A stretch of 26,810 nucleotides of DNA from a virus: the IMG/VR virus record IMGVR_UViG_3300010388_000035, positions 1 through 26,810 of that record, one strand, 5' to 3'. The notes under the pieces are model-generated. The model searched no databases, was not told the DNA's origin, and saw only the letters and a program-made list of their open reading frames with translations. Positions within the stretch are counted from its first letter, which is position 1. Each line of letters begins with the position of its first letter. Positions 50-26,460 of the stretch are shown piece after piece. The translations under genes were made by a program, and so were the position numbers.

Positions 50-555
50 CCAAAAAACAAACGTTAGTAAACGACAACATGGAAAAGTTGTTTGATTTGC
101 CACCTACAGCAACGTTACAAGATAAGATGAAGAACATCATTCGCTCTACACCAGAAGAACTTAAAGAAGTAGGTGTCAATGTAACGGAAAAACAATCAGA
201 AAAACCAAAGAGAGTCTATACAAAGAAAGCCCCAACAAGAGGTGGCGCACGTAAAGGATCAGGCAGACCTAAAGGTTCAACAAACAAGATTACTCCTGTT
301 GAAATGCTTGATGACTTTAAAGTGCAAAGTGGTATGGATTTCCATCAGTTCATCAACGAACAGATTGTGGCTGCACATCACGCCGGAGACAGAGAACTAG
401 TAAGCAAGTATTTGCTAGGGTTCGCAAAGTATCTAGTGCAAGATGTACAAGAGATTAAACAAGACGTAACAAGTAACGGTCAGACAATGACAATGGGATT
501 TAGTTTTCCAACAACTGAATTGCCTGAGTGGAACGATGAATCAACAAAACATTGA
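46..555 (+). CDS. putative terminase small subunit
   Basis: This 169-residue protein lies directly upstream of the large terminase and overlaps it by 20 bases. Residues about 60-85 form a basic stretch with an AT-hook-like core (GSGRPKGSTNK), a feature common in phage DNA-binding and small terminase proteins. The rest is predicted helical and acidic. Small terminases recognise the packaging site on viral DNA and hand it to the large subunit. The start at 46 follows AGAAAGG with good spacing. Position and the basic motif support the call; the primary sequence is not diagnostic, so another DNA-binding protein of the packaging operon is possible. Confidence 0.62.
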   Translation: MTKKQTLVNDNMEKLFDLPPTATLQDKMKNIIRSTPEELKEVGVNVTEKQSEKPKRVYTKKAPTRGGARKGSGRPKGSTNKITPVEMLDDFKVQSGMDFHQFINEQIVAAHHAGDRELVSKYLLGFAKYLVQDVQEIKQDVTSNGQTMTMGFSFPTTELPEWNDESTKH

Positions 556-1978
556 AATACCTCTGTTTGGCGAGCAAAAAACGATTCTAGCAGATTGGCT
601 CACTACTGACAAGCACAACATAGACATTGTGCCCGTAGGTAGTGGGAAGACATTCTTGGCAGCGATTGCGCTTCCAATATTCGCTAGTGACCCTCGCTTT
701 CACAAGGGCAAAGATATCATTTATTCAGCACCAACTGGAGCAATGATAAAGTCTTTGATATGGGAGCCTCTGAAGCAAAGTTGTATTAAACACTTTAATC
801 TTGTAGACGGTAAAGACATCAACAACAGTGAGTTAACAATAAAGTTTCCTGGTGGTGTCTTTATCCGTTGCAAGAGCGCAGAGCAAAGAGAGAACTTACG
901 TGGTTTAAACGTAGGAGTTTGGATTGCTGACGAAGCAGCATTGTACACACAAGATACATTGCAAGAAATCACAAACCGTCTTAGACCTAAAGTTGGTCAG
1001 CCCGATACTGCAGGTAGATTGATTGTTATTAGCACACCCAATGGTAACGGCCCATTGTATGATTTGTTTCAATCAGCCATGGCCATGCCTAGCAAATACA
1101 TTGTTAGACACTACAACTATATGCAAATGCGTAGTGGTAACAGAAACTTTATTGAAGAACAGAAACGTATTCTTAGCCCATTAAAGTTTGCACAAGATTA
1201 TATGTGCTCATGGGACCAAGTAGAGAATCAGTTCTTCTACACATGGAACAAACACAAGTACACAGTAGATATGATACCGGATCGTATGGGTGATTTGTAT
1301 TCGTTTCACGACTTTAACAAACGAAGGATGACTGCAATTGTCGCACAAGTTATTAACCCAGGAAAGAAAGACGGAACAATTGAGATCCTTAAATCCTACG
1401 CTATCAACGATTGTTCAACCGAAGGGATCGCTCAAGCAATACGCAATGACTTTCCGCGTAGAAGAATCAATAGTATTATTGACATGTCAGGAACTCAAGT
1501 CAACAGAGATACAACAAGCCCCTTCGGAATTACAGATAGGGTCATTCTTGAGAAGTATGGGTTCACCATCGTCAACAACAGAAACAGTAATCCGCTTATC
1601 GCTGATACCGATAATACTAGTAACAGTTTCATTAATAGAGGTGGCCTCTTGGTTGCTAAAGATGACAAAATCTTGCTTGATGCTCTTGGCACTTACCATT
1701 TTGAAGATGGCTCAAGGAAGAAACTAGTAAAGTATACTGAGCAAGCATACGCACACATTGACGGTTTAGGTGACTGTGTACGTTATGGCATACATCACTT
1801 GTTCCCGATACATCACGAAGGCACAGACATGCCTGAATATGTTACAAGCGATGGTAGATTTACTAAACGTGCAGGTAGCGAACACTTACCGCACTCACCG
1901 TTATATCCCGGTGGCCCATCATGGGAACAGATATTAAATGAAGACCAACAAGGAAATGAAGATTATGTCTCGTGGTAG
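536..1978 (+). CDS. terL: terminase large subunit (packaging ATPase and nuclease)
   Basis: This is the motor that pumps DNA into proheads and cuts the concatemer. The 480 residues match the usual TerL length. The N-terminal ATPase has a Walker A-like VPVGSGKT (32-39), a Walker B WIADE (129-133, with catalytic E133) and a coupling motif ISTPNG (165-170). The C-terminal RNase H-like nuclease has three spaced acids: D259 in HDFN, D316 in IIDMSG, and D409/D413 in DGLGD. The gene overlaps its neighbours at both ends, so the packaging genes are probably translated together. The shadow frames inside it have no support. Confidence 0.95.
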   Translation: MNQQNIEIPLFGEQKTILADWLTTDKHNIDIVPVGSGKTFLAAIALPIFASDPRFHKGKDIIYSAPTGAMIKSLIWEPLKQSCIKHFNLVDGKDINNSELTIKFPGGVFIRCKSAEQRENLRGLNVGVWIADEAALYTQDTLQEITNRLRPKVGQPDTAGRLIVISTPNGNGPLYDLFQSAMAMPSKYIVRHYNYMQMRSGNRNFIEEQKRILSPLKFAQDYMCSWDQVENQFFYTWNKHKYTVDMIPDRMGDLYSFHDFNKRRMTAIVAQVINPGKKDGTIEILKSYAINDCSTEGIAQAIRNDFPRRRINSIIDMSGTQVNRDTTSPFGITDRVILEKYGFTIVNNRNSNPLIADTDNTSNSFINRGGLLVAKDDKILLDALGTYHFEDGSRKKLVKYTEQAYAHIDGLGDCVRYGIHHLFPIHHEGTDMPEYVTSDGRFTKRAGSEHLPHSPLYPGGPSWEQILNEDQQGNEDYVSW

Positions 1979-2407: not shown

Positions 2408-2415
2408 TATAAATA
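2408..2415 (+). promoter_or_regulatory. T4-type late promoter box TATAAATA
   Basis: A perfect match to the T4 late promoter octamer, followed by C as in many T4 late promoters. It lies 12 bases after the HNH stop and 65 bases before the portal start. Transcription would begin near 2421 and include the hairpin at 2432-2460. Promoter function is inferred from the sequence match and placement. Confidence 0.6.
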
Positions 2416-2479: not shown

Positions 2480-4102
2480 ATGAAGAATTCACATTTAATG
2501 AAAAAGAATCCTCTGTACACTAACACATACGAAACGATGCTACAGTATCAATATGCGTATCTTGGTGGACAAGTTTTTAAAGTAAACGTTCGCAAAAAGC
2601 GTCCAAGTGAAGACAGTGTTATCTACTTGGATGTTGTAACAAACACAGTAGCGCAACCAATCTGTCGCTATATCGTAGACACAATCAATGATGTATTATT
2701 TGAGCCTGGCGTAAAGCGCAACATTCAGTTCGCAACTCCAACAGGCGCAAAAGTTTCTACAGACAATATGGAATGGCAAGAACTATTCCAATTAGATGCA
2801 GACTTACAGAATCGCTCATTGACTGGATTCATGGAAAACGTCGGTGACTTAACAAGTATCTTTGGTCATTGCTGGGTAGCAGTTGACATGCCAATGAAAG
2901 AACAAGGTAATCTTGGTCGCCCATATACAGTAGCAATGAGTCCTATCAACGTATGGGATTGGGAGTATGAGAATTACGGTGGAAGACCTATTCTCAAGTA
3001 TGTTAAGATTATGGAACATGAAACTGACCAATGCTATTATTTCAAGTGCTATCATTTAGGTGATGCAACTACACCAAGTTACTGGCGTAGTTATGAAGTA
3101 GAGAAGGGTGCTCCAATTGAAAAAGAAACAGAGTTAACAGGCGAAGGATTCTATCCACCTGGTATGGGCATTCCAGTCTTTATCGCATACGGTCGCAGAG
3201 ATCCGCGCACTATTGAATTAGGTATCAGTGATATTGATACAGCAAGTGATGCAATGCGTGAACATTACAAACTAGAATGTGAAGCATACCAATCTATTCA
3301 GTTTGCAAAGACATTGATTCGTGCAGATAACGGCGTTAAAGTACCAGCATTAGCCGGTGCTATTGTTCGTGCTACGCAAGGTCAGATTGAATCTATCACT
3401 GTTGATACAGGTGACGTAGATAAGATTATCAGTAAGCAACAAGATATCCTAGAACAAATTGAAGCATTGACTGGCTTAGGTGGATTGCGTAATAGCAAGA
3501 ACCAAATCGCTAGTGGCGTTGCTATCATTGAAGAACGCAAGCAATTACATAGAATGGCTAAAGCAAAAGCACGTGAGATGGAAGTAACAGAAGAACAAAT
3601 ATGGACTTATGCTGCTCGTTTCATGGACATGCGTTGGGCCGGTGAAGTAGTTTATGGTACTGACTATGAACAACACGATACAAACTATCGTATGGCTTTA
3701 ATGAAGGAAGCGAAGGCTCTTGCTCCAGATAATGAAATCATTAATGGATTGATTATCAACGAAATGGTTGCAATGCTTGCTCCACCAACAGAAACACAAG
3801 AGTACTTACAAGCAGTTAAGCCAACATTAGGCCCATCAATGCAGGCTGTTGTTACTGAAGAATCTAGTGAAGTTTATTCACGTGACTTGGGTACACAGAT
3901 TCCTGTTGACACAGACTATAAGTTTGTTGATGGCGAGTGGGTTAAAGGAACTAGTGAAGATGAAGGCGATGATGGAGATGGCGTAGATGAATCCAATGAC
4001 TACGTTGGTGGTGGGTCTACTACTATACAGTATATGGGTGCAAGTTATACACCACAACAAGCCGTTGCAATTCAACTATCCGGCATTAACACAGGACGAT
4101 AA
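2480..4102 (+). CDS. portal protein
   Basis: This 540-residue protein sits between terminase and scaffold/capsid, the usual portal position, and has the usual portal size. It begins with an aromatic-rich N-terminal segment and has a long helical middle (about 250-400) with the stem-like stretch QQDILEQIEALTGLGGLR. The C-terminus is acidic and low in complexity (about 490-515). Portals form the dodecameric vertex through which DNA enters and to which the terminase and the tail attach. The start at 2480 follows AAAGGAAA with seven bases between. An in-frame ATG at 2498 is a less favoured alternative. The gene ends two bases before the Dps-like gene. Confidence 0.88.
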   Translation: MKNSHLMKKNPLYTNTYETMLQYQYAYLGGQVFKVNVRKKRPSEDSVIYLDVVTNTVAQPICRYIVDTINDVLFEPGVKRNIQFATPTGAKVSTDNMEWQELFQLDADLQNRSLTGFMENVGDLTSIFGHCWVAVDMPMKEQGNLGRPYTVAMSPINVWDWEYENYGGRPILKYVKIMEHETDQCYYFKCYHLGDATTPSYWRSYEVEKGAPIEKETELTGEGFYPPGMGIPVFIAYGRRDPRTIELGISDIDTASDAMREHYKLECEAYQSIQFAKTLIRADNGVKVPALAGAIVRATQGQIESITVDTGDVDKIISKQQDILEQIEALTGLGGLRNSKNQIASGVAIIEERKQLHRMAKAKAREMEVTEEQIWTYAARFMDMRWAGEVVYGTDYEQHDTNYRMALMKEAKALAPDNEIINGLIINEMVAMLAPPTETQEYLQAVKPTLGPSMQAVVTEESSEVYSRDLGTQIPVDTDYKFVDGEWVKGTSEDEGDDGDGVDESNDYVGGGSTTIQYMGASYTPQQAVAIQLSGINTGR

Positions 4103-4104
4103 TC

Positions 4105-4533
4105 ATGTTAGCAGATAACCTAAAAGAAATATTGGCAACTACTTACAGTTACAAGATTAAAGCACAAGGATTCCATTGGAACGTTGAGGGATCTAACTTC
4201 CCTCAATATCACGAATTCTTTGGTGAGATTTATGAAGATGCTGATTCGGCGATTGACCCATTAGCAGAATACATTCGCACATTAGATGTATATGCTCCTG
4301 CTTCATTGAAACGTTTCAGCGAACTAAGTAAAATTGAAGACCAATTAAAGATTCCTAAAGCAGAGTTAATGCTTAGTGAATTACTGAAAGATACAGAAAC
4401 ACTAATCGCATTGTTAAAAGATGCGTTTGATGTAGCAACTACAGACCGTGAGCAGGGTATCGCTAATTTCTTAGCAGACCGTTTAAGTGCTCATGGTAAG
4501 TATAAGTGGCAACTTTCTGCCACATTAAAGTAA
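4105..4533 (+). CDS. Dps/ferritin-like protein
   Basis: The 142-residue protein matches the Dps family: FHWNVEG near the N-terminus, a helical bundle, and a closing AHGKYKWQL like the family's C-terminal AHxKxxWML. All four ferroxidase ligands keep canonical spacing: H24, H36 (12 on), D51 (15 on) and E55 (4 on). Dps proteins assemble into 12-mers that oxidise and store iron using peroxide and often bind DNA. The lysine-rich N-terminal DNA-binding tail of some Dps proteins is absent. The gene starts two bases after the portal stop and precedes the scaffold, so it is expressed with head genes. A role in the virion, in iron handling or in DNA protection during late infection is inference. Confidence 0.88.
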   Translation: MLADNLKEILATTYSYKIKAQGFHWNVEGSNFPQYHEFFGEIYEDADSAIDPLAEYIRTLDVYAPASLKRFSELSKIEDQLKIPKAELMLSELLKDTETLIALLKDAFDVATTDREQGIANFLADRLSAHGKYKWQLSATLK

Positions 4534-4536
4534 AAA

Positions 4537-4544
4537 GATAAATA
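4537..4544 (+). promoter_or_regulatory. T4-type late promoter box GATAAATA
   Basis: GATAAATA followed by C, four bases after the Dps-like stop and 51 bases before the scaffold start. It has seven of eight bases of the T4 consensus. It would give scaffold and capsid their own transcript. A weak leader stem (TGACT/AGTCA, 4560-4576) follows. Confidence 0.5.
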
Positions 4545-4594
4545 CTTATTACAACTCGGTGACTCCGTTATAGTCAGGAAGAAATTAACCAATC

Positions 4595-12660: not shown

Positions 12661-13116
12661 ATGAAAATCATTGAAGCAAATAAATTTCACATCCCAGTCA
12701 TCATTGAGATGCTTAAACATTACCGAGAAGTTACACCCGTTTCATTCTTTAAAGATATTAACAATGAACAACACGTTAACGGTTTACTCACACACATTCT
12801 AGCCGGTCGTGGCGTAATCTTGTTGAGTTATAAAGACAATGTGCCAACAGGCATGTTGTTAGCGTTTATTGATTCTAGCATATGGGATACAAATTTATGT
12901 GTACTGAAGGAATTAGCATACTGGGTAGAGCCAGAGTTCAGAGGAACAAGTGCGGGTTATCGCTTATTGTCAAAGTACAACGAGGTCGCACAGTCACTTT
13001 TAGATACGGGAAGAATCAAAACATGGACAATATCAAAAATGGTAAACAGTCCTGACTTAGATTACGCTAAACTAGGCTTTAGCAAAGTAGAAGAAACATG
13101 GAGCATGGGAGTATAA
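12661..13116 (+). CDS. GNAT family N-acetyltransferase
   Basis: A 151-residue GNAT-fold protein. The acetyl-CoA binding loop is RGTSAG (94-99) after the strand LAYWVEPEF, with S in place of the usual first G; similar RGSSAG loops occur in phage GNATs. The end (NSPDLDYAKLGFSKVEETWSM) matches the late GNAT helix and strand. It would transfer an acetyl group from acetyl-CoA to an amine; the substrate is unknown. It sits in the tail-tip operon between the L-like and J-like genes, one base before the latter, where lambda has the cell wall hydrolase K. Whether it acts on a virion protein or a host target cannot be seen. Confidence 0.87.
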   Translation: MKIIEANKFHIPVIIEMLKHYREVTPVSFFKDINNEQHVNGLLTHILAGRGVILLSYKDNVPTGMLLAFIDSSIWDTNLCVLKELAYWVEPEFRGTSAGYRLLSKYNEVAQSLLDTGRIKTWTISKMVNSPDLDYAKLGFSKVEETWSMGV

Positions 13117-16163: not shown

Positions 16164-17507
16164 ATGAGCGAAGTCAACTTAAATTTCGTAGTAGAAACTT
16201 ACGATGCTACCTTTACGGTAGAAAACGTTGACCTAACTTTCACTCCAACTGCGACTGAGTTAGGCATTTACACTGGTGGTTATGCTACAGCAGCCGGCAG
16301 TTCTGGACAAGTACAATATAACAATGGCGGGATACTAGCAGGTAACTCGCACCTTACATTCAATTCAACAACTAAAATATTAACAGTTGATAGTATCAAT
16401 TCAAACGCAACTATACTTGCTAACAATTTAGGTGCATCAAATACTCAAACAACTTTGTTAACTGTATATAATATGGCAACATTGGGTAACGTTGCTAACA
16501 TTAGAATTACCGGTGGCACAAGTACACAATCATTGAAAACATATGGCAATGGCGTAGTGTACTTTGGCAATACAACACCAGGTGGCAGTAACACACAATT
16601 GCAATACAACAATGCAGGTGAACTTGCAGGTATGGCAAACGTTACATACACTAGTGGTAAACTAAACTTAGGTCCAGTTGCATATGTTAAGATGACCGGT
16701 GGCTCTAACAACCAGTTTTTGAAAACTGACGGTAACGGTAATTTAAGTTTTAGTAGCACAACAACTGTGCCGGGTGGCAGTAACACACAACTTCAATATA
16801 ACAACAACGGCACAATTAGCGGAATAGCCAACGTAACATTTGCAAGTGGCAACTTGAGTTTAGGTAACGTTGCTAACGTTAAGATGACCGGCGGAACTAG
16901 TGGGCAAGTATTAAGTACAGACGGTACTGGCAATCTATCATGGATTACAGGCGGTGGCGGCGGCAATACATCAGCAGGTGGCTCTAATACGCAAATGCAA
17001 TACAATAATGCGGGTGTGCTAGGTGGAATGCCTACATTTACTTTCAATAACACTAGCAATCTTACTACCATGAGTGGTAACTTAGACATGACTGGTACAC
17101 CCACATTGCATCAAGGTAAGGAAAAGATTACTAGCAGCGGTACAAGTGGTGGAACTATCAACTTTAACATACTTGATTACGGTGCAATAGTTTGGTGCAC
17201 TACAGCATTAACTGGTAACCTATCAATTAACGTTAGAGGTGACGCAAGTACTACATTGGCAAGTCAATTAAGCAATTGGGAATCTATCACTATCGTATTG
17301 GGGACATCAGTTGGTACAACTATATATGTTCCAACAGCATTTAGTCTTGATGGCACAAGTACAACAGTTAGATGGGTAGGTGGAATTGCCCCTTCGTCAA
17401 CAAATATTTCAGCCGACTATTATGTTGTGTATACATACACTATCACTAGACAATTACTTGATAACTATCTAGTGTTAGGTAGTTTCACAGGATATCATTC
17501 AGGATAA
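16164..17507 (+). CDS. repeat tail fibre protein (cassette 1)
   Basis: A 447-residue fibre protein. The N-terminal 45 residues (NLNFVVETYDATFTVENV) are short beta strands likely to bind the adaptor. Then come four copies of a fibre repeat of about 60 residues built on GGSNTQLQYNN, ANVTF, SGNLSLGNVANVKM and TDGNGNLSF. The last third (about 310-447) is a distinct globular beta domain with TINFNILDYG and YYVVYTYTITRQLL, likely a tip or trimerisation domain. The repeat pattern is common in aquatic phage fibres. Part of its DNA is shared with the fibre gene at 19736. Confidence 0.78.
   Translation: MSEVNLNFVVETYDATFTVENVDLTFTPTATELGIYTGGYATAAGSSGQVQYNNGGILAGNSHLTFNSTTKILTVDSINSNATILANNLGASNTQTTLLTVYNMATLGNVANIRITGGTSTQSLKTYGNGVVYFGNTTPGGSNTQLQYNNAGELAGMANVTYTSGKLNLGPVAYVKMTGGSNNQFLKTDGNGNLSFSSTTTVPGGSNTQLQYNNNGTISGIANVTFASGNLSLGNVANVKMTGGTSGQVLSTDGTGNLSWITGGGGGNTSAGGSNTQMQYNNAGVLGGMPTFTFNNTSNLTTMSGNLDMTGTPTLHQGKEKITSSGTSGGTINFNILDYGAIVWCTTALTGNLSINVRGDASTTLASQLSNWESITIVLGTSVGTTIYVPTAFSLDGTSTTVRWVGGIAPSSTNISADYYVVYTYTITRQLLDNYLVLGSFTGYHSG
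16836..16865 (+). repeat. 30-bp exact repeat shared with the 878-aa fibre gene (copy 1)
   Basis: Thirty bases, identical to 22145-22174 in the second fibre gene 5.3 kb downstream, encode the fibre repeat core FASGNLSLG. Homology extends at lower identity on both sides. The shared stretch could allow recombination between the two fibre genes. Confidence 0.8.
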
Positions 17508-17512
17508 TATTA

Positions 17513-18865
17513 ATGCCATTTATTTCAACATACGGTACCTTTAGCGTTAGAGGGTTCGGGGGTTTAGGTGCAGGTAGCACCCCTCCTCCACCTTCAGGTA
17601 CTGCGCACATCGGATACACTACCGTTACTGATGGATTTATATTTGACATCATCATAGATTCAAGCAACAACATTATTGGTATCTATAATAACGACACTGC
17701 ACCTACTGGTGGTAGATATCTTTTTAAATATGGGCCAACTACAAGTTTAACATATTGGTTATTTGAAGACACTGGCACAAGAAGTTATGTACTAGCACAA
17801 GATAGTAGCGGTAATATATATGGCGCCGGCTCTATTAGTTTGTATACATCTGGTACACAATTTGGTACGTTAACTGATTATGGTACAGGTACACCATCAT
17901 GGGCAAGTCGTTATAGTTATATTATATCTAGTCCATATGAGTCATCAAACTTACCTAACTTTACAAACATATCCGTAGTAGGATCAAATGTAATTGGCAT
18001 GGGCGTTAAAGATTCTGGCACCGGTATTAGACGAGCATGGATATCAAGACCTGACACTAGTGGTAGTCTAGACCCCTACGTAGGTATGCCATATTATACT
18101 TACAATTATGGATCTAGTACAGGCGCAGCACCTTATACGATGAACGGTGGATGTGCAGCATTAGAAGTACCCTCACCCGGCTTATGTGGATTTGGCACGT
18201 TTAGTTCTGTGTATGATTCAATTACATATAAACGCAGTACAACTACTATTATACGTAAAGTGTTTGATGATACCGCGGGTACATATGCCTATGTAGCCAC
18301 AAGTATTACTAGCGGTGGTAACACATACGTGGGTATCGCACGAATTCTTAAATCAACTAGAACAGTTTCCAATAGTTATACTTTTGCTACTAGCGGTACT
18401 AGCAATCAAGTTACCGGTTTTCATGTAGATACTACGAATAGTTATATCTATATTTCATATACAAGTTTGACTGAAACAAGCGTTGATAGAATTACTAAGT
18501 TCAACCTATCAGGGTCACCCGTATGGACACGCACATTGAAGCAAGCAAGTGGCGCGGCCTTGGGTATAAAGAAGATTGTTTCAAGTCCAGATGGCGAACG
18601 TTATTATCTATTAAGTGATACTGAGATATTTGAATTCCCTGCAGACGGATCAATACCGACACCAGGATCATACACAGTTAATGGTGTTACATATACATAT
18701 GGTTCAACTGGTACTGCATGGACGAATGGTACAACTAGCAACCTAGTACTAGCGTCATTGAACTTTACCGAGTATGCTAACTATCCAGACACTGCAACTA
18801 ATTCTACGTTGTCAGTTTCATCATCAACTGATTCAAGTGGAATCACATGGGCTGGAATAGGTTAA
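17513..18865 (+). CDS. propeller-like receptor-binding protein candidate
   Basis: A 450-residue protein following the repeat fibre of cassette 1. A short N-terminal segment with GFGGLGAGS and a PPPP linker (1-28) may dock to the fibre. The rest has recurring blade-like turns: DSSNNIIGIY, DSSGNIYGAG, VGSNVIGMG, TSGGNTYVGIA, TNSYIYISY and SPDGERYYLLS, consistent with a beta-propeller of six or seven blades. It is rich in S, T, G and Y with almost no K, typical of exposed phage tip proteins. I infer host receptor binding from position and fold; the sequence alone does not prove it. Confidence 0.6.
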   Translation: MPFISTYGTFSVRGFGGLGAGSTPPPPSGTAHIGYTTVTDGFIFDIIIDSSNNIIGIYNNDTAPTGGRYLFKYGPTTSLTYWLFEDTGTRSYVLAQDSSGNIYGAGSISLYTSGTQFGTLTDYGTGTPSWASRYSYIISSPYESSNLPNFTNISVVGSNVIGMGVKDSGTGIRRAWISRPDTSGSLDPYVGMPYYTYNYGSSTGAAPYTMNGGCAALEVPSPGLCGFGTFSSVYDSITYKRSTTTIIRKVFDDTAGTYAYVATSITSGGNTYVGIARILKSTRTVSNSYTFATSGTSNQVTGFHVDTTNSYIYISYTSLTETSVDRITKFNLSGSPVWTRTLKQASGAALGIKKIVSSPDGERYYLLSDTEIFEFPADGSIPTPGSYTVNGVTYTYGSTGTAWTNGTTSNLVLASLNFTEYANYPDTATNSTLSVSSSTDSSGITWAGIG

Positions 18866-18876
18866 CACCTATTTTT
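18856..18876 (+). terminator. intrinsic terminator over the stop of the propeller-like gene
   Basis: AATAGGT (18856-18862) pairs perfectly with ACCTATT (18867-18873) around TAAC, whose TAA is the stop codon. A further TTT follows, giving a run of five T. Two possible G-T pairs extend the base. It ends fibre cassette 1 just before the late box at 18881. Confidence 0.7.
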
Positions 18877-18880
18877 CAGT

Positions 18881-18892
18881 AAACGATAAATA
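18881..18892 (+). promoter_or_regulatory. late promoter box AAACGATAAATA, fibre cassette 2
   Basis: Identical over 12 bases to the box at 15661-15672. It follows the terminator by a few bases and lies 71 bases before the start at 18964. T4-type initiation would give a leader from about 18898 that contains the hairpin at 18904-18930. Confidence 0.58.
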
Positions 18893-18903
18893 GTTATATC
18901 ACG

Positions 18904-18930
18904 CTTACAACGCAATGGGGTGCTTGTAAG
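18904..18930 (+). promoter_or_regulatory. leader hairpin of fibre cassette 2
   Basis: CTTACAA pairs with TTGTAAG and GCA with TGC around ATGGGG, with one bulged C: ten pairs in all. It starts about six bases after the predicted transcript start and lies upstream of the ribosome site GAGGAGA, so it probably protects or tunes this mRNA. It is not followed by a T-run. Confidence 0.5.
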
Positions 18931-18963
18931 TTATTATGCACGAAGGCAGAGGAGAAACTTACT

Positions 18964-19734
18964 ATGGCAAAATTCGCCAACGATACCCTTATTCAGGTAG
19001 CCGGCTTTGATGGACAAATCTTAGCGCAGGAAATGGTCTACGACCAAAAAGATTTCTGGAACATGACATGGAGCACAAAGATTGGCTCTGCTGTTACACC
19101 AGTTGATTTAACAGGCGTTACGATTAGTGCACAAATCATCCGCAGACAACTAAGTGACGTTGTTGATGGTCGTTATGGTTTAGAGTTTCAAATTAGTGAT
19201 TATCCCGCATATCCATTAACATGGGGTACTGCAAGTGGTGTATTTTTCTCTGGGTCATCATCTATTACTAATGCATATACAATCACTGGTACTAACCCTA
19301 ATCTAGAAGTAGGTGATCCTGTACAATTTGATGGAGGCGTATTCGGTGGCGTTGTAGCAAATACAACATATTATATCAAATCACTACCAACATCAATGAG
19401 TTTTACGCTTAGTGAAACATTAGGTGGCCCAACATTCCAATTATCAACTGATACAGGTTCCATGTATCTAATGTTACCTGCTACATATGGGCCTGAACCA
19501 GTTAACTTAACAATCACTAATCGTATTAATGACCAAGGCAAATTTACGTTAGTTATTGACGATGATGTTTGGGGAGTTCTTGCAACTGATCCTGAATTGA
19601 ATATCAATGCAACTGATCCTGTAGGATTCAGTGGGCGCATTAAATTAAGTTTCCCTAGCGCTGGATCAACTCCAGCATATGACGAACAAATCTTCTTGTT
19701 GTTCTTGATCCGTAGTGACGGTGTGGTGAACTAA
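18964..19734 (+). CDS. fibre adaptor with inserted FCCH-like domain (cassette 2)
   Basis: A 256-residue protein at the head of the second fibre unit. The N-terminal part (DFWNMTWSTKIGSAVTPVDL) and the C-terminal strands (FTLVIDDDVWGVL, DEQIFLLFLIRSDG) form an Ig/BppU-like adaptor. Between them, at about 85-165, is a domain with VGDPVQFDG, ANTTYYIKSL and MSFTLSETLGG, the pattern of E1-FCCH-like modules found in aquatic phage structural proteins. The cassette 1 adaptor lacks this module and is 100 residues shorter. It probably docks the 878-residue fibre to the tail tip. GAGGAGA lies upstream of the start. Confidence 0.58.
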   Translation: MAKFANDTLIQVAGFDGQILAQEMVYDQKDFWNMTWSTKIGSAVTPVDLTGVTISAQIIRRQLSDVVDGRYGLEFQISDYPAYPLTWGTASGVFFSGSSSITNAYTITGTNPNLEVGDPVQFDGGVFGGVVANTTYYIKSLPTSMSFTLSETLGGPTFQLSTDTGSMYLMLPATYGPEPVNLTITNRINDQGKFTLVIDDDVWGVLATDPELNINATDPVGFSGRIKLSFPSAGSTPAYDEQIFLLFLIRSDGVVN

Positions 19735-19735
19735 A

Positions 19736-22372
19736 ATGGCTACATTAGTTAATGTAACCCCTGCTAGCCAAATATCAACTGTTGAAGTTATTAACAGAGA
19801 CCTTATTGTTACTGTACAAAAGGAAATTAAAACAGTTGATATCGTTGTTGAAGCAAGAAACACTATTGAATTACTGATTAGCCGTGCTGTTAGTCCTGGT
19901 GTCGTTTCCATATATGGTAGCGAGAACATTAACGTATCAGGACATACAGGTAACGTAACAGTTAGTTTCACAAGTCCTAATGGTTTTGCATCAGGTGGTA
20001 ACATCAGTGCACCATACTTCCTAGGTAACGTTGTTGGTAACATCAGTGGTAACATTGTTGTGCCCGGCTTGCAAGGAGACGTATTGTTTAACGACAGTGG
20101 CAATGCTGGTGCAAGTGACAATCTTCAATTCAACAAAACTTCTAATGTATTAACTGTTACTGGTAACATCGTTGCCAATACAATCACTGCTAACGTGAAT
20201 GGTACAGTAATAGGTAATATTCAACCTACTTACGTGCTTGGTAATTTGATTCCAAGCAGCAACGTTACATACAATTTAGGTAACAGCACAAACAGATTCA
20301 AAGATTTGTATTTGGCTGGCAATACAATCTACTTAGGTAACTATCAGATTGATACCAATAGTAGTGGTATCACCATGAGTGGCAATTTAACTGTAGGTAA
20401 TATTGTTACTACTGGAAAACTAAGCGGCGATGGAAGTTTGATTAGCAATATTTCAGGTGCTAACATCACAGGCACAGTAGCCAATGCAACATACTCAGTT
20501 AACTCAGGTACTGCTTATTCAGTTAGTGGTAGTAACGTATCTGGCACAGTAGCCAATGCAACATACTCGGTTAACTCAGGTACTGCATATAGTGTTTCTG
20601 GTTCTAATGTATCCGGTCAAGTAGCAAACAGTTTGGTCGCCGGAACTGTTTACACTAATGCACAACCAAATATTACATCAGTAGGTTCATTAACAAGTCT
20701 AACAGTAGCAGGTGATGCTACTGTTGCAGGTAATCTTGCAATTAACGGTAACCTAACATACGTTAACGTTACAAACTTAAACGTTCAAGATCCTGTGATT
20801 GAAATGGGCGGCGGACCTAATGGCGCGCCACTCACAATCAACGATGGCAAAGACAGAGGAACATTACTTCATTACTACACTACCGAACCTATCAATGCGT
20901 TTATGGGTTGGGACAACAGTGGTAGTGAATTCATCTTTGGTTCTAACATAACAAATACAAATGATGTTATCACAGTTAATAATTATGGTAACGTTCATGC
21001 TAACTATTTTAAGGGTAATGCTAGTGAGTTAACTGGTACTATTGCTAATGCTAACTATGCCGCATATGCAGGCACAGCATATTCAGTAGATGGTAGTAAC
21101 GTATCCGGCACAGTTGCTAATGCAGCACACGCTACAGTTAGCGATTCAGCAAATAGTGTCGCAGGAGCCGATGTTACTGGTCAGGTAGGTAATGCATTAA
21201 TTGCCGGAACTGTTTACACTAATGCACAACCAAACATCACTAGTGTTGGTACACTAATTGACTTAGATGTGACAGGAAACGTAAGTGCAGGAAATATTAA
21301 GTCCGATAATCTATTGTACGCTAATGGTGACCCTTATGTGTTTACTACTAACGCAGCCGGAACGAATACCCAAGTACAATTTAATGATGATGATAGTTTT
21401 GCTGGTGATGTTAATTTAACATTCAATAAAACAACAGGTACATTAACAAGTTTATATTTGGCTGGTGAAGGTGGTAATATCACCAGCATTTTAGGTACAA
21501 ACGTTTCAGGTGCAGTTGCCTTAGCAACTAATGCTACATCTGCTGATACTGCAACTGTTTCATATACTGCATATTCAGTAGATGGTAGTAACGTATCAGG
21601 GTCAGTAGACAATGCGATTTATGCATCAAGTGCAGGTACTGCGTCACTAGCCGACTACGCAACAGCGGCAGGCACTGCATCAAACGCAGATAATGCATAC
21701 AGTGTTGATGGTGCTAACGTTGTAGGTGAAGTTGCTAACGCAGGATTCGCATCAATTTCTAGTACAACATACGCAGTTGATGGGGCCAACGTATCCGGTG
21801 CAGTAGCCAATGCAACATATGCAACAAGCGCAGGTACTAGTGATATCGCTACTACTGCATATTCAGTAGACGGCGCAAACGTTGTAGGTGAAGTAGCCAA
21901 TGCAACTTATGCAACAAGTGCAGGAACTAGTGATATCGCTACTACTGCATATTCAGTTGATGTGGCAAACGTATCTGGCATCGGCAACATTGCAACCATT
22001 AACTTAGACGGTAACATAAGCAACGTTCTTTCTGGTGATGGCACATTCATTGCTATGTCAGGTGGCGGCGGTGGTACTCCAGGTGGGAGTGATACTCAAT
22101 TACAATACAATAATGCAGGATCATTTGGTGGCATTGCTAACGTTACATTTGCAAGTGGCAACTTGAGTTTAGGTGATGTTGCTAACGTTAAGGTAGCCGG
22201 CGGCATAGGTAACACATTCATCAGTACAGACGGTGCTGGTAATTTGTCATTTCAAACTATTACTAGTAATTTAACTGTGGGCACTAGAGCAACAGCAGTA
22301 AATATTGGAATCAGTAATTACACAATGAATGTTGAATCAAGAACTGGTAACGTAACAGTTAACGTCAACTAA
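19736..22372 (+). CDS. large repeat tail fibre protein (cassette 2)
   Basis: An 878-residue fibre built of beta repeats. The N-terminal 70 residues (VTPASQISTVEVINRDLIV) are probably the docking part. Repeats include YSVSGSNVSGTVANATY (many copies), QVxNxLxAGTVYTNAQPNITS (two copies), and QVQFN/QLQYNN units at about 540 and 785. A central domain (about 340-420; VQDPVIEMGGG and NDGKDRGTLL) is one I associate with tail fibre or structural proteins of T4-like cyanophages. Composition is very rich in A, G, N, S, T and V with few charges. No chaperone domain is visible at the end, so trimerisation may need other proteins such as the tail assembly protein at 25793. Confidence 0.82.
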   Translation: MATLVNVTPASQISTVEVINRDLIVTVQKEIKTVDIVVEARNTIELLISRAVSPGVVSIYGSENINVSGHTGNVTVSFTSPNGFASGGNISAPYFLGNVVGNISGNIVVPGLQGDVLFNDSGNAGASDNLQFNKTSNVLTVTGNIVANTITANVNGTVIGNIQPTYVLGNLIPSSNVTYNLGNSTNRFKDLYLAGNTIYLGNYQIDTNSSGITMSGNLTVGNIVTTGKLSGDGSLISNISGANITGTVANATYSVNSGTAYSVSGSNVSGTVANATYSVNSGTAYSVSGSNVSGQVANSLVAGTVYTNAQPNITSVGSLTSLTVAGDATVAGNLAINGNLTYVNVTNLNVQDPVIEMGGGPNGAPLTINDGKDRGTLLHYYTTEPINAFMGWDNSGSEFIFGSNITNTNDVITVNNYGNVHANYFKGNASELTGTIANANYAAYAGTAYSVDGSNVSGTVANAAHATVSDSANSVAGADVTGQVGNALIAGTVYTNAQPNITSVGTLIDLDVTGNVSAGNIKSDNLLYANGDPYVFTTNAAGTNTQVQFNDDDSFAGDVNLTFNKTTGTLTSLYLAGEGGNITSILGTNVSGAVALATNATSADTATVSYTAYSVDGSNVSGSVDNAIYASSAGTASLADYATAAGTASNADNAYSVDGANVVGEVANAGFASISSTTYAVDGANVSGAVANATYATSAGTSDIATTAYSVDGANVVGEVANATYATSAGTSDIATTAYSVDVANVSGIGNIATINLDGNISNVLSGDGTFIAMSGGGGGTPGGSDTQLQYNNAGSFGGIANVTFASGNLSLGDVANVKVAGGIGNTFISTDGAGNLSFQTITSNLTVGTRATAVNIGISNYTMNVESRTGNVTVNVN
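20471..20586 (+). repeat. tandem 72-bp coding repeat in the large fibre gene
   Basis: A 44-base segment (20471-20514) recurs at 20543-20586 with one mismatch, giving a 24-codon period. It encodes the GTVANATYSVNSGTA repeat. Such near-identical copies are prone to copy number change by slippage or recombination. Confidence 0.8.
20639..20670 (+). repeat. 32-bp exact repeat in the large fibre gene (copy 1; copy 2 at 21203-21234)
   Basis: Thirty-two identical bases occur here and at 21203-21234. They encode AGTVYTNAQPN. A diverged copy of the same peptide (AGTVYTSAQPN) is in the gene at 23805, so this module has spread between fibre genes. Confidence 0.8.
21803..21958 (+). repeat. tandem 90-bp coding repeat in the large fibre gene
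   Basis: A 66-base segment (21803-21868) recurs at 21893-21958 with four mismatches, a period of 90 bases or 30 codons. It encodes VANATYATSAGTSDIATTAYSV. The reading frame is kept across the repeats. Confidence 0.8.
22145..22174 (+). repeat. 30-bp exact repeat shared with the 447-aa fibre gene (copy 2)
   Basis: Identical to 16836-16865 in the fibre gene of cassette 1. It encodes FASGNLSLG in the QLQYNN repeat near the C-terminus. Confidence 0.8.
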
Positions 22373-22381
22373 GAGAATAAC

Positions 22382-23032
22382 ATGACAAACAGATATCCAT
22401 TAATCATTAACTCAGCATCTAGTCAAATACAAGAATTAGCCAGTGGCGATAAACTAGATTTGTCTAGTTCAGGTATTACAAACTTGACTATCGGTAACTT
22501 AACTGTTACCGGTGGTTCTAGTGGTCAATATATTCAAACTGACGGTACAGGCAATTTAACATTTGCATCAGTATCAGTGAGTCCTGCAGGTAGCAATACA
22601 CAAATACAATACAATAATAACGGAACCCTCGCAGGCTCAGCAAACTTAGTTTTCAATAATAGTTCAAACACACTAACTGTTACCAACATAGTTCCATCAA
22701 ACAATATTACATTAAAGAAGTTTGGCGAAACAGTTGTTGCTGGTGGTAGTACTGGTGCTGCTACATTAACACCCGATGCAAGTGCTGGTTCAATATACCA
22801 ATATACAGTTACTGGTGCAATTACATTAAGTGCATTGAGTAACGCAGTAGCGGGTACAAGTATGACAATCATCTTAACGCAAGGTGGCGCAGGCAGTTAT
22901 GTGCTTACTTCAACAATGAAGTTTGCAGGTGGCACTAAAACTTTAAGTACCGCAGTAGGTGCGATAGATATTATCAGTGTGTTCTACGATGGTTCAACAT
23001 ACTACGCAAGTTTAACAAAAGGTTACGCATAA
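22382..23032 (+). CDS. short tail fibre protein, paralogue A
   Basis: A 216-residue fibre protein. Its N-terminus (YPLIINSASSQIQELASGDKLDL) matches that of the gene at 23805 and is a common N-terminal docking motif in aquatic phage fibres. One QIQYNNNGTLAGSANL repeat follows (about 75-110). The C-terminal domain (about 120-216; YQYTVTGAITLSAL, GSYVLTSTMKFAGGTKTL, DGSTYYASLTKGYA) is a compact beta tip also related to 23805. It lies ten bases after the large fibre and one base before a LamG gene, so they probably form one fibre complex. Confidence 0.72.
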   Translation: MTNRYPLIINSASSQIQELASGDKLDLSSSGITNLTIGNLTVTGGSSGQYIQTDGTGNLTFASVSVSPAGSNTQIQYNNNGTLAGSANLVFNNSSNTLTVTNIVPSNNITLKKFGETVVAGGSTGAATLTPDASAGSIYQYTVTGAITLSALSNAVAGTSMTIILTQGGAGSYVLTSTMKFAGGTKTLSTAVGAIDIISVFYDGSTYYASLTKGYA

Positions 23033-23033
23033 C

Positions 23034-23795
23034 ATGTTTGCAGCAAGAGGTGGCTTTCTAGCACAACCTGTAGCCAGTGGTGGCGGCACTAGCATGTTCT
23101 TACCCAAGAGCACTGTATCAAGTCCTGCACCTAGAGTTTATTGTACCGGTACTACTGCATTGATACAATGGTATGCAAGTACAGGTTATACTTTAGAATA
23201 TTGGGTGTATGTTCCAACGTTCTCGCCCTGGAGTGGTACATGGACAGGTGCTGGTAACCATAACGGTACTGGTATTGACTACTGGACAATCTTTCCAGGT
23301 GCTAGTGGTTCATTATCATTCTATGCATACCCGGTGGCAACATACACTACACCAACGTCTGTTATTGCAACAAACACATGGACTCATGTTGCAGTGAGCG
23401 TACAATATAGTTCACCAAACGTAACATTTAGAATGTTTGTTAATGGTGTTGCACAAGCAATTAACGGTGGTGGTACTAGTGTTACAAACACTGCATCCGC
23501 ATATCAGTCTAATGCAGGTACTGGATTCAGCATTGGTCAACGTAGTACTGGTGTGGGTAGCAATAGTTTCTATGTTGACGATTTGCGTGTAAGTAACATT
23601 GCCCGTTATGTGTCAAACTTTACCCCACCTACTAGTCCGTTCACTACTGATGGCAACACATTATTGTTAATGAGCATGGATGGTACTAATGGTTCAACCG
23701 GACCTTTCATTGATTCAAGTAGTTTCAACAGATCCTTTACTAACTCAACTAGTACACCTCGCACTACAATTTCATCAGCACAATCTAAATTCTAA
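23034..23795 (+). CDS. single LamG (concanavalin A-like) tip protein
   Basis: A 253-residue protein. After a short N-terminal segment (ARGGFLAQPVASGGG) comes one LamG domain (about 40-205): YTLEYWVY, WTHVAVS, FVNGVAQ, then VDDLRVSNIARY and NFTPPTSPF. LamG/concanavalin-like domains bind sugars or act as adhesion modules. It directly follows the short fibre and probably sits at a fibre end. Receptor binding is inferred. Confidence 0.78.
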   Translation: MFAARGGFLAQPVASGGGTSMFLPKSTVSSPAPRVYCTGTTALIQWYASTGYTLEYWVYVPTFSPWSGTWTGAGNHNGTGIDYWTIFPGASGSLSFYAYPVATYTTPTSVIATNTWTHVAVSVQYSSPNVTFRMFVNGVAQAINGGGTSVTNTASAYQSNAGTGFSIGQRSTGVGSNSFYVDDLRVSNIARYVSNFTPPTSPFTTDGNTLLLMSMDGTNGSTGPFIDSSSFNRSFTNSTSTPRTTISSAQSKF

Positions 23796-23804
23796 GGATA
23801 AAAT

Positions 23805-24407
23805 ATGGCAAACTATTTCCCATTAATCGTAAACACATCAACAAGTCGCATTGCCGAATTACCATCGGGTGATAACTTAGATTTGTCTGGGTCAAACATT
23901 AGCAACGTAGGTAACATTACAGTTGCAAGTACAGTTACAGCAACTACATTTAGTGGTAGTATCGCAGGATCAGGTGTGACTGGTCAAGTAGGTAATGCAT
24001 TAATAGCAGGCACAGTATACACAAGTGCTCAACCAAACATTACTAGTACAGGTACATTGACAAGTGTATATGCTACCCAATATGTTGAAACAAGAACAGC
24101 ACCTACATTAAGTGGCAGCGCATTAACGCTTGACTTGAGTTTAAGTAACGTGTTTGATGTTTCATTATCAGCGAGTGTCTCAACACTAACAATCTCAAAT
24201 GCTCCTACAACAGGCAAGGCATATGGATTTACACTCAAGGTAAACATCACGGGTAGTTATACAATCACATGGCCCGCAAGTGTTAAATGGCCAAGTGGCA
24301 CTGCACCTACACTAACTACAACAAGTGGTAAAGTAGATGTATTTGAGTTCTTTACCGTTGATGGTGGAACAACATATTACGCATTCGTAGCAGGTCAGAA
24401 CCTATGA
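23805..24407 (+). CDS. short tail fibre protein, paralogue B
   Basis: A 200-residue paralogue of the gene at 22382: same N-terminus (FPLIVNTSTSRIAELPSGDNLDL) and same kind of C-terminal beta domain (GSYTITWPASVKWPSGTAPTL, DGGTTYYAFVAGQNL). In place of the QYNN repeat it has the GQVGNALIAGTVYTSAQPNI module of the large fibre, so it is a mosaic. AAGGA precedes the start; its TGA overlaps the next ATG (ATGA). Confidence 0.75.
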   Translation: MANYFPLIVNTSTSRIAELPSGDNLDLSGSNISNVGNITVASTVTATTFSGSIAGSGVTGQVGNALIAGTVYTSAQPNITSTGTLTSVYATQYVETRTAPTLSGSALTLDLSLSNVFDVSLSASVSTLTISNAPTTGKAYGFTLKVNITGSYTITWPASVKWPSGTAPTLTTTSGKVDVFEFFTVDGGTTYYAFVAGQNL

Positions 24408-25780
24408 GCATAGAACGAGATTTACGTAGAGCCTTTAAAGGTGGCGGCGCTGCTACTGACCCATATTGGAATAACGTATCTGCACTTGTGCTTACAAACA
24501 GTACAGGGCCCACAAGTAATAAAACAGCAGTTGATGAAACAGGTGGCGTTACGTTTAGCATCGGCACAAGTACAACAGGTGGTCCAGCATACTCATACCT
24601 AAGCCCATTTACAAATAGCCCAGGTAGTTATTATAGTTCTGCTACTATGGGCGGTAGCGGATTAAAATCATCAGCAAATACTAACTTAAATTTCGCAGGA
24701 GACTTTACAGTTGAATGTTGGGCAATGATACCGAGTGGTACAAGTTTGAGCGGGTATCCTAGTCCCATAATCAATGGTGACAACGCAGGTTTCTTTGCGT
24801 ACGGACCAACTGCAGGATATTGGAGTGCTAATTCATATGGCGGCGTAATCGGTTATGCATTCAATAGTGCTATTGCTAGTAACGATGGCGTTTGGCGTCA
24901 TCTAGCATTGTCACGTAGTGGAACTAGTTTACGTTTCTTTATTGATGGTACACAAATTGGTACCACTGCGACCGCATCGGGTACTACTAACTATAGTGGT
25001 AGTAACTTTATGTGCGGAGTAGGATCAGGCCCAGGCGCAGGTGATAACCAATGTCCAGGATATATCAGCAACGTAAGATTCAGCAACTCAGCAAGATACA
25101 CTAGTAACTTCACACCACCTACATCAAAATTCACAGTTGATGCAAATACTAAATTCTTATGGTTAGGCAATGCTGCATTCTGGGATGTAAGTACAATTAA
25201 AAATACAATCACTCAGTTACCAGCGACTACTGTTGTTCAGAATTCTAGTATTAAGAAATGGTCTACTTTAAACAGTATTGAAAGTTCTGGCACGGCCAAC
25301 TTAAACTCGCTTACTATGCCATCTAATGCTGCGTTTGCATTCTCTGGTTCATATACAATAGAGTTTTGGGTTTACATATCAAGTGCCACTACACAAAATG
25401 CAACTTCAATCCTATTCTATCGTCCAGGTATTATAATTTATTCAAATAGGTCTTCTTATAGTAATGTGTTTAGTGCAGTAGTTGATATTGATGGTAGTAC
25501 CTTTTTAAGTACAGTAAATAGTAAAGACAGTGCATGGCACCATATAGCACTTGTGAGAAATCAAGCAAATGCTAACATGACATACTTCTTTGTTGATGGA
25601 GTCATGTATGGTTCAGCACAACGCAATACTACATACAGTGAAACAATTCAGAATATAGGAAGTAGCGGTGTCCCTAGCGACCAATTAATTGGATACTTAG
25701 ATGAACTTAGAATTACAAAAGGTGTTGCAAGATACACTGCAAACTTTACGCCACCTGCAGCACCATTCCCAACTAGTTAA
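24404..25780 (+). CDS. double LamG (concanavalin A-like) tip protein
   Basis: A 458-residue protein with two LamG domains. Domain 1 (about 20-255): FTVECWAM, WRHLALSR, FFIDGTQIG, YISNVRFSNSARY. Domain 2 (about 265-455): YTIEFWVY, WHHIALVR, FFVDGVMYG, YLDELRITKGVARY. Each ends in NFTPP. A short basic N-terminal segment (ERDLRRAFKGGG) may dock it. It is coupled to the upstream short fibre by ATGA. The pair (short fibre plus LamG protein) repeats the arrangement at 22382/23034, indicating duplication of a two-gene unit. Sugar binding on the host surface is the likely role. Confidence 0.8.
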   Translation: MSIERDLRRAFKGGGAATDPYWNNVSALVLTNSTGPTSNKTAVDETGGVTFSIGTSTTGGPAYSYLSPFTNSPGSYYSSATMGGSGLKSSANTNLNFAGDFTVECWAMIPSGTSLSGYPSPIINGDNAGFFAYGPTAGYWSANSYGGVIGYAFNSAIASNDGVWRHLALSRSGTSLRFFIDGTQIGTTATASGTTNYSGSNFMCGVGSGPGAGDNQCPGYISNVRFSNSARYTSNFTPPTSKFTVDANTKFLWLGNAAFWDVSTIKNTITQLPATTVVQNSSIKKWSTLNSIESSGTANLNSLTMPSNAAFAFSGSYTIEFWVYISSATTQNATSILFYRPGIIIYSNRSSYSNVFSAVVDIDGSTFLSTVNSKDSAWHHIALVRNQANANMTYFFVDGVMYGSAQRNTTYSETIQNIGSSGVPSDQLIGYLDELRITKGVARYTANFTPPAAPFPTS

Positions 25781-25792
25781 TAAGGAAATAAA

Positions 25793-26242
25793 ATGATATA
25801 CGCAAAAGTAATAATGGACGATGTCCAACAAGTAGGAACATTGCAAGAATTGTTCCCTAACACAAGTTTCCCTGATACCGGTGTTGATGGTATGTGGCTA
25901 AGCGAAAATCACATTTTGCCTGTGATTGAGTATAAAGAAACAGACCCTTCAATTGAAAAGGTAGAAGGTTGTGATCCTTATCGTAACGGTCCTGAAGTGC
26001 ATACATTCAGAACTATTCCATTAACACAAGAAGAACAAGAACTATATCAATCAAATAAGATTGTGGCACAATGGAATGGAGTTCGTTATGAACGTGATAT
26101 TAGATTACATGATACAGATTGGTCACAGTTACCTGACGTACCTGAAGCAACTCGTAATAGTTTTGTGGTATATCGTCAAGCACTGAGGGATATCACAACT
26201 CAGACTGACCCATTTAACATAGATTGGCCAACAAAGCCATGA
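25793..26242 (+). CDS. tail fibre assembly / tail assembly chaperone-like protein
   Basis: A 149-residue protein after the fibre genes. The C-terminal half carries the pattern RDIRLHDTDWSQLPDVPEA, YRQALRDI and IDWPTKP, which matches the phage tail assembly chaperone group (Phage_tail_APC-like) usually found with fibre genes. The N-terminal half (IYAKVIMDDVQQVG) is a small beta domain. It probably helps fold or attach the fibres. AAGGAA lies before the start. Its TGA overlaps the next ATG. Confidence 0.8.
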   Translation: MIYAKVIMDDVQQVGTLQELFPNTSFPDTGVDGMWLSENHILPVIEYKETDPSIEKVEGCDPYRNGPEVHTFRTIPLTQEEQELYQSNKIVAQWNGVRYERDIRLHDTDWSQLPDVPEATRNSFVVYRQALRDITTQTDPFNIDWPTKP

Positions 26243-26460
26243 TTGATTTTACTAGCAAGCAATTAAGTTACATTGTACTAAGTCTCGCCGGTATCGGTGG
26301 AGGCGGCTATGTTACGATGAATGGTAAGGTTGATGAAATTGACAAGAAACTTGCAGTAGCAATTAACAGTAGCGACAATACAGTTAGGGCCATGGAAAAG
26401 ATTGAACGTCAGTTAGTTCGTATAGAAGAAAAAATAGACTCTAGGAATAACAAGAGATAA
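26239..26460 (+). CDS. small membrane-anchored coiled-coil protein (lysis-related candidate)
   Basis: A 73-residue protein starting at an ATG that overlaps the upstream stop (ATGA); a TTG at 26224 would add five residues but is less likely. One hydrophobic, glycine-rich segment (9-27, YIVLSLAGIGGGGYVTM) is followed by a charged coiled coil (31-67) with hydrophobic residues at a/d spacing (I55, L59, I62, I66). A short membrane anchor plus coil fits holin- or inner-spanin-like proteins placed after tail genes, but it is shorter than typical Rz proteins. Topology and role are inference. Confidence 0.6.
   Translation: MIDFTSKQLSYIVLSLAGIGGGGYVTMNGKVDEIDKKLAVAINSSDNTVRAMEKIERQLVRIEEKIDSRNNKR

Follow-up and report, generated by a model that had tools for sequence, protein, structure and literature searches.

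Does a Dps gene located in the head module of a phage encode part of the virion, or a protein that acts elsewhere during infection? This question is raised by the window (the whole stretch of DNA analysed, 26,810 nucleotides of IMG/VR virus record IMGVR_UViG_3300010388_000035), in which a gene for a Dps-type mini-ferritin is found between the portal gene and the probable scaffold and capsid genes. In this uncultured virus of aquatic bacteria, the product appears to be a dispensable aid of late infection and not a piece of the virus shell.

A mini-ferritin gene within the head module

The Dps gene begins two bases after the portal stop codon (junction ACAGGACGATAATCATG) and precedes the scaffold and capsid genes, as a preliminary description of the sequence had stated (Table 1). 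An HNH endonuclease gene (1938–2396), with a true start that is probably an ATG near 1965, overlaps the end of the large terminase gene and precedes the portal gene. The 263-aa ORF downstream of Dps did not match any family in Pfam and PHROG searches and is labelled a scaffold because of its placement before the capsid gene. The 340-aa capsid candidate has 143 viral relatives and no relatives in isolate phages. Within the tail module is a gene encoding a GNAT-type acetyltransferase (12661–13116, phrog_1249), and several of the tail-fibre-like genes (16164–25780) have in common repeated GGSNTQLQYNN and VSGTVANA-type segments, a pattern that suggests shuffled fibre cassettes.

Table 1. Features of the window that bear on the Dps locus
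Feature	Position	Strand	Basis or remark
Terminase large subunit gene	536..1978	+	phrog_2, 9.5e-36
Late-promoter-like TATAAATA	2408..2415	+	Upstream of portal; consensus match only
Portal protein gene	2480..4102	+	phrog_145, 2.1e-23
Dps/mini-ferritin gene	4105..4533	+	ATG start, 142 aa; Pfam, PHROG and PDB matches and predicted fold
Intergenic control region, Dps to scaffold	4534..4594	+	GATAAATAC from 4537; RNA structure 4557–4576
Probable scaffold gene, 263 aa	4595..5386	+	Position only: precedes capsid gene, syntenic in relatives
Probable major capsid protein gene, 340 aa	5417..6439	+	Weak phrog_267 match, 4.8e-5
Small membrane/coiled-coil (holin-like) gene	26224..26460	+	Site-B Dps follows its homologue in relatives

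The 142-aa protein matches Pfam family PF00210 (Ferritin; 1.9e-20), phrog_3636 (4.1e-31) and 46 distinct Dps-like PDB chains, the best of which is 8ff9 (2.1e-20). The AlphaFold model, built with 22 phage relatives (pLDDT 96.3, pTM 0.90), is a four-helix ferritin-like bundle with a short BC helix (helices at residues 2–26, 32–59, 68–74 for BC, 86–113 and 117–141), and the top solved structure identified by Foldseek was the Pseudomonas aeruginosa Dps PA0962 (TM 0.94, rmsd 1.4). A twelve-subunit shell is presumed for the protein, the prediction itself being of a single chain.

The four ferroxidase ligands H24, H36, D51 and E55 are present at the positions and in the exact Dps spacing given by the preliminary description; the spacing H-x11-H-x14-D-x3-E turns up in 0.02% of sequences obtained by shuffling the protein. 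Residues H24, W25 and H36 are unchanged in 88 phage relatives, and D51, E55 and R58 are unchanged in every one of the 88 that covers them. Loss of the ligands in close relatives had been named as grounds for doubting an intact iron-oxidising site, and the ligands proved invariant in the full-length phage relatives examined, so the site appears to be intact.

The pairwise dN/dS between the window Dps and that of relative L001 is about 0.07, for a pair in which synonymous change is high, and two other Dps pairs gave values of 0.06 and 0.11. The reading frame is intact in Dps carriers, and the sequences point to purifying selection that keeps the gene working. A recent chance capture of the gene as a neutral passenger, without function, would fit its patchy presence and its GC content, which is below that of its neighbours (37% versus 40%). 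This reading is rejected as very improbable because the dN/dS shows purifying selection; the invariant ligands, the intact frame in carriers and the fact that a different Dps is independently carried elsewhere (site B, below) also stand against it.

The portal–scaffold slot and a second Dps position

More than 100 loci of the same lineage were gathered by capsid and portal scans. The gap between the portal and scaffold genes is usually 30–90 bases long and empty in these relatives, and the counterpart of the control region in Table 1 then directly follows the portal gene. Over 94 distinct capsids, this slot (site A) contained Dps in 11, was empty in 79 and contained other genes in four, though 11 of 94 is a biased rate because some carriers (L001–L005) were obtained through a Dps search. 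The cargo of loci L182, L184, L185 and L207, and of L096 and L176, is a DNA methylase with an HNH-like ORF, or the latter alone. On this sequence comparison the slot is a cargo site.

The nearest relative, L082, has a portal 86% and a capsid 89% identical to those of the window and no Dps in its slot, and the slot of L092, the sister of L001, is empty as well. Absence of the gene at an otherwise intact junction in close relatives is the pattern of accessory, moron-like cargo. A capsid component would be present wherever the homologous head module occurs, and Dps is not. A structural capsid role, one of the options in the preliminary description, is therefore rejected as a necessary role because near-identical sister head modules lack the gene, as do the 79 empty slots.

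The slot Dps proteins form one clade in a focused tree (93/78), and in a wider Dps tree the protein of L042, from a different context, falls among them. The carriers, by contrast, fall in separate parts of the capsid tree, where four to five changes are needed, and the gene therefore appears to come and go at one site. These trees are most simply explained if members of the lineage exchange the gene at a fixed site and also lose it. In the window and in L001, L004, L198 and L204, GATAA is found at both ends of the insert, formed by the portal stop and by the start of GATAAATA.

When whole records were searched, a further Dps, 38–44% identical to that of the window, proved frequent in relatives whose slot is empty. 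This gene is located at the end of the late operon (site B), past the tail-fibre genes and the small membrane gene and before genes on the opposite strand. The window itself has no plus-strand ORF of at least 60 aa after position 26460, hence no Dps behind its small membrane gene. Among 13 near-complete relatives (contigs of 29 kb or more, selected through their capsid or portal), seven have Dps at site B, two at site A, four have none and none has both. Mutual exclusion of the two sites was considered, but the numbers are too few for significance. Because four of these relatives have no Dps, the benefit of the gene is likely conditional. The site-B proteins keep the ferroxidase ligands, with W25 replaced by V or L, and are found on a different branch of phage Dps from the site-A proteins. 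In L294–L301 (e.g. L298:6341-6775, minus strand), FHVN or FHLN stands in place of FHWN beside the ferroxidase histidine. A model of one site-B Dps built without an alignment was poor (pLDDT 51) and was set aside.

Candidate expression signals around the Dps gene

Five NATAAATA motifs with the form of a T4 late promoter are present on the plus strand (2408, 4537, 15665, 18885 and 26456), and none is present on the minus strand of the window. Four of the five are in intergenic DNA, which totals 592 bases, versus 0.45 expected (p about 0.002). The motifs occur here in a small non-T4 phage. Judged from its placement, the site at 2408 would drive both portal and Dps. The 2-base spacing leaves no room for an intergenic promoter ahead of Dps, and a promoter may be located inside the portal gene. 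With one late-promoter-like site ahead of portal and another, at 4537, between Dps and scaffold, Dps is probably carried on the portal transcript, ahead of the element that controls scaffold and capsid. Its synthesis together with the head proteins, suggested earlier from gene order, is accordingly judged probable.

A small RNA structure is found just upstream of the scaffold ribosome binding site, and in the same place in about 165 relatives. All 166 sequences examined (the window and its relatives, the latter with 84 distinct 75-mers) contain CG-N7-CG followed by a segment able to pair with the N7 loop; in the window, loop positions 4560–4564 pair with 4572–4576. Over 26 distinct sequences, 94.5% of the proposed pair cells are standard pairs, both sides have changed in 21 cells versus 6.8 by shuffling, and the covariation score is 0.325 versus 0.162 ± 0.020 for shuffled sequences (0/500). 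Slid versions of the pairing collapse. The predicted helix between loop and tail is supported by this compensatory change, while an H-type pseudoknot is graded as possible because the two CG pairs never vary. The element could control translation of scaffold and capsid. An Rfam search of the window, RNA element included, gave no match.

Proposed role and comparison with known Dps proteins

The favoured reading, considered fairly probable as a whole, is that the gene encodes a catalytic Dps-type mini-ferritin, an accessory protein whose task in the infected cell would be to oxidise and store iron, and not a building block of the capsid. The phage would make it late, from the portal transcript, and twelve subunits would form a hollow shell in which Fe(II) is oxidised with peroxide and ferric iron is stored. 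Free iron and peroxide would be lowered in the dying host while genomes replicate and are packaged, and fewer particles with damaged DNA would result. The protein would act in the infected cell, probably without binding DNA directly, and the slot would simply be a late position that tolerates insertion, immediately ahead of the scaffold and capsid control element.

The charge of the protein bears on the alternative that it acts in the manner of E. coli Dps, binding phage or host DNA and compacting it to shield it or to shut down the host. PHROG 3636 is labelled 'DNA binding protein' and the family name points the same way, but the protein is acidic (pI 4.94, charge about −7), starts at helix A with no N-terminal extension and lacks the lysine-rich N-terminal tail, the positively charged terminal extension of DNA-binding Dps of the E. 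coli type. Removal of iron and peroxide is therefore likelier than DNA coating, and the DNA-binding reading is improbable. Hoarding of host iron, with release of the mineralised iron at lysis or its use by phage enzymes, would draw on the capacity of the family to store iron. Among the genes of the window no iron-dependent phage enzyme was recognised, and this reading has slightly less to recommend it still.

The remaining alternative places Dps inside the virion or on its surface, with protection of packaged DNA or delivery of iron to the next host as its role. A Dps DNA motif was used to draw a sample of 80 phage loci; in about nine of them, from uncultured T4-like phages, the gene separates the two terminase subunit genes, and one other (L359) has an arrangement similar to the portal slot. 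The T4-like loci with the order TerS (gp16)–Dps–TerL (gp17) are L320, L327, L358, L366, L375, L391, L396, L399 and L440-L476. Among relatives of that T4-like terminase, TerS could be recognised in 49 loci, 31 of which have Dps between the subunits, and in three further Dps loci the small subunit is cut off; Dps in the packaging operon is thus recurrent, and stable in that lineage, which is unrelated to the lineage of the window. Recurrence beside packaging genes in two unrelated lineages would also fit a packaging- or virion-linked role. Location in the head operon was rejected as proof of a head function, the sampled frequencies being at roughly the level that random insertion in large genomes could produce, and position alone is weak evidence for a packaging role because most phage Dps genes lie elsewhere.

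Virion-associated Dps would also fit several long BFVD proteins named 'Prohead protease' (A0A6J7WPK9, A0A6J7XDU5 and A0A6J7WIS1) with a Dps fold in their predicted structures. These representatives may be unusually long members. A fusion of Dps and prohead protease is a tentative lead arising from the BFVD names; a scan of every collected phage Dps locus found no long fused frame. With a width of about 9 nm, a Dps 12-mer would need a recruitment signal for packaging, and none is visible. Against virion packaging there are also the sister phages described above, which lack Dps beside 86–89% identical portal and capsid proteins, and the relatives with Dps after the tail genes, outside the head module. 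In its favour, mass spectrometry revealed a ferritin-like protein, gp217, in material prepared from a Vi01-like phage, the infection of which was unaltered by iron-uptake mutants (PMC10892097). Packaging of Dps in the virion is unlikely on balance. A wider proposal, in which aquatic phages took a phage-specific Dps lineage into the packaging operon on repeated occasions as an iron-loading shell that travels with or guards the genome, with a virion- or packaging-linked ferritin common to unrelated tailed phages, is a little more doubtful again.

The origin of the gene was approached through bacterial Dps proteins. A first genome scan found no close bacterial donor, and the best bacterial Dps in an alignment-based search were 36–41% identical. 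A fully supported branch separates bacterial Dps from all phage Dps in a tree that is unrooted and includes only the nearest hits on its bacterial side; the label 'phage-specific clade' suits this sample but is not proof. Dps is common and strongly selected in uncultured aquatic phages, forms branches separate from the closest bacterial Dps in the sample, and occurs in non-orthologous forms at two alternative late positions in one small phage lineage, which makes control of iron and peroxide during phage maturation a testable and apparently recurrent need. Entry of any of these Dps shells into virions, if it takes place, would turn phages into direct iron carriers, a point relevant to the 'Ferrojan horse' idea.

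The presence of a phage-borne Dps in a head operon had been called unusual in the preliminary description. This holds for isolate phages, in which 13 of 50,697 records match the window Dps, but not for uncultured aquatic phages, in which relatives number in the hundreds. No isolate-phage Dps, those of Synechococcus phages S-EIVl and S-SRM01 included, exceeds about 31% identity to that of the window. Dps has been reported in Gratiaviridae and other gut phages, where it was read as protection against oxidative damage (PMC8008677), and in Lactobacillus phages, where the genes are near replication genes and the same protection was proposed (PMC6669764). The harm to be averted is ascribed to iron and oxygen radicals. 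None of the papers covered by the literature search describes a phage Dps placed between portal and scaffold. Phage-borne Dps is therefore already known, and its position here is uncommon and recurrent.

P. aeruginosa PA0962 (8ff9), the best match in sequence and fold, has the same ferroxidase motif but is bacterial, 31% identical and extended at the N-terminus by about 13 residues, whereas the window Dps has no extension. The tail-less mini-ferritins Dlp-1 and Dlp-2 of Bacillus anthracis and the Dps of Listeria resemble the window Dps in fold and length, although they are 20–30% identical to it and are chromosomal stress genes; they protect through iron oxidation and not DNA binding. The Dps between the terminase genes of T4-like phages shares with the window gene a late packaging operon, tight spacing and the same catalytic residues, but belongs to another branch of phage Dps and is about 43% identical.
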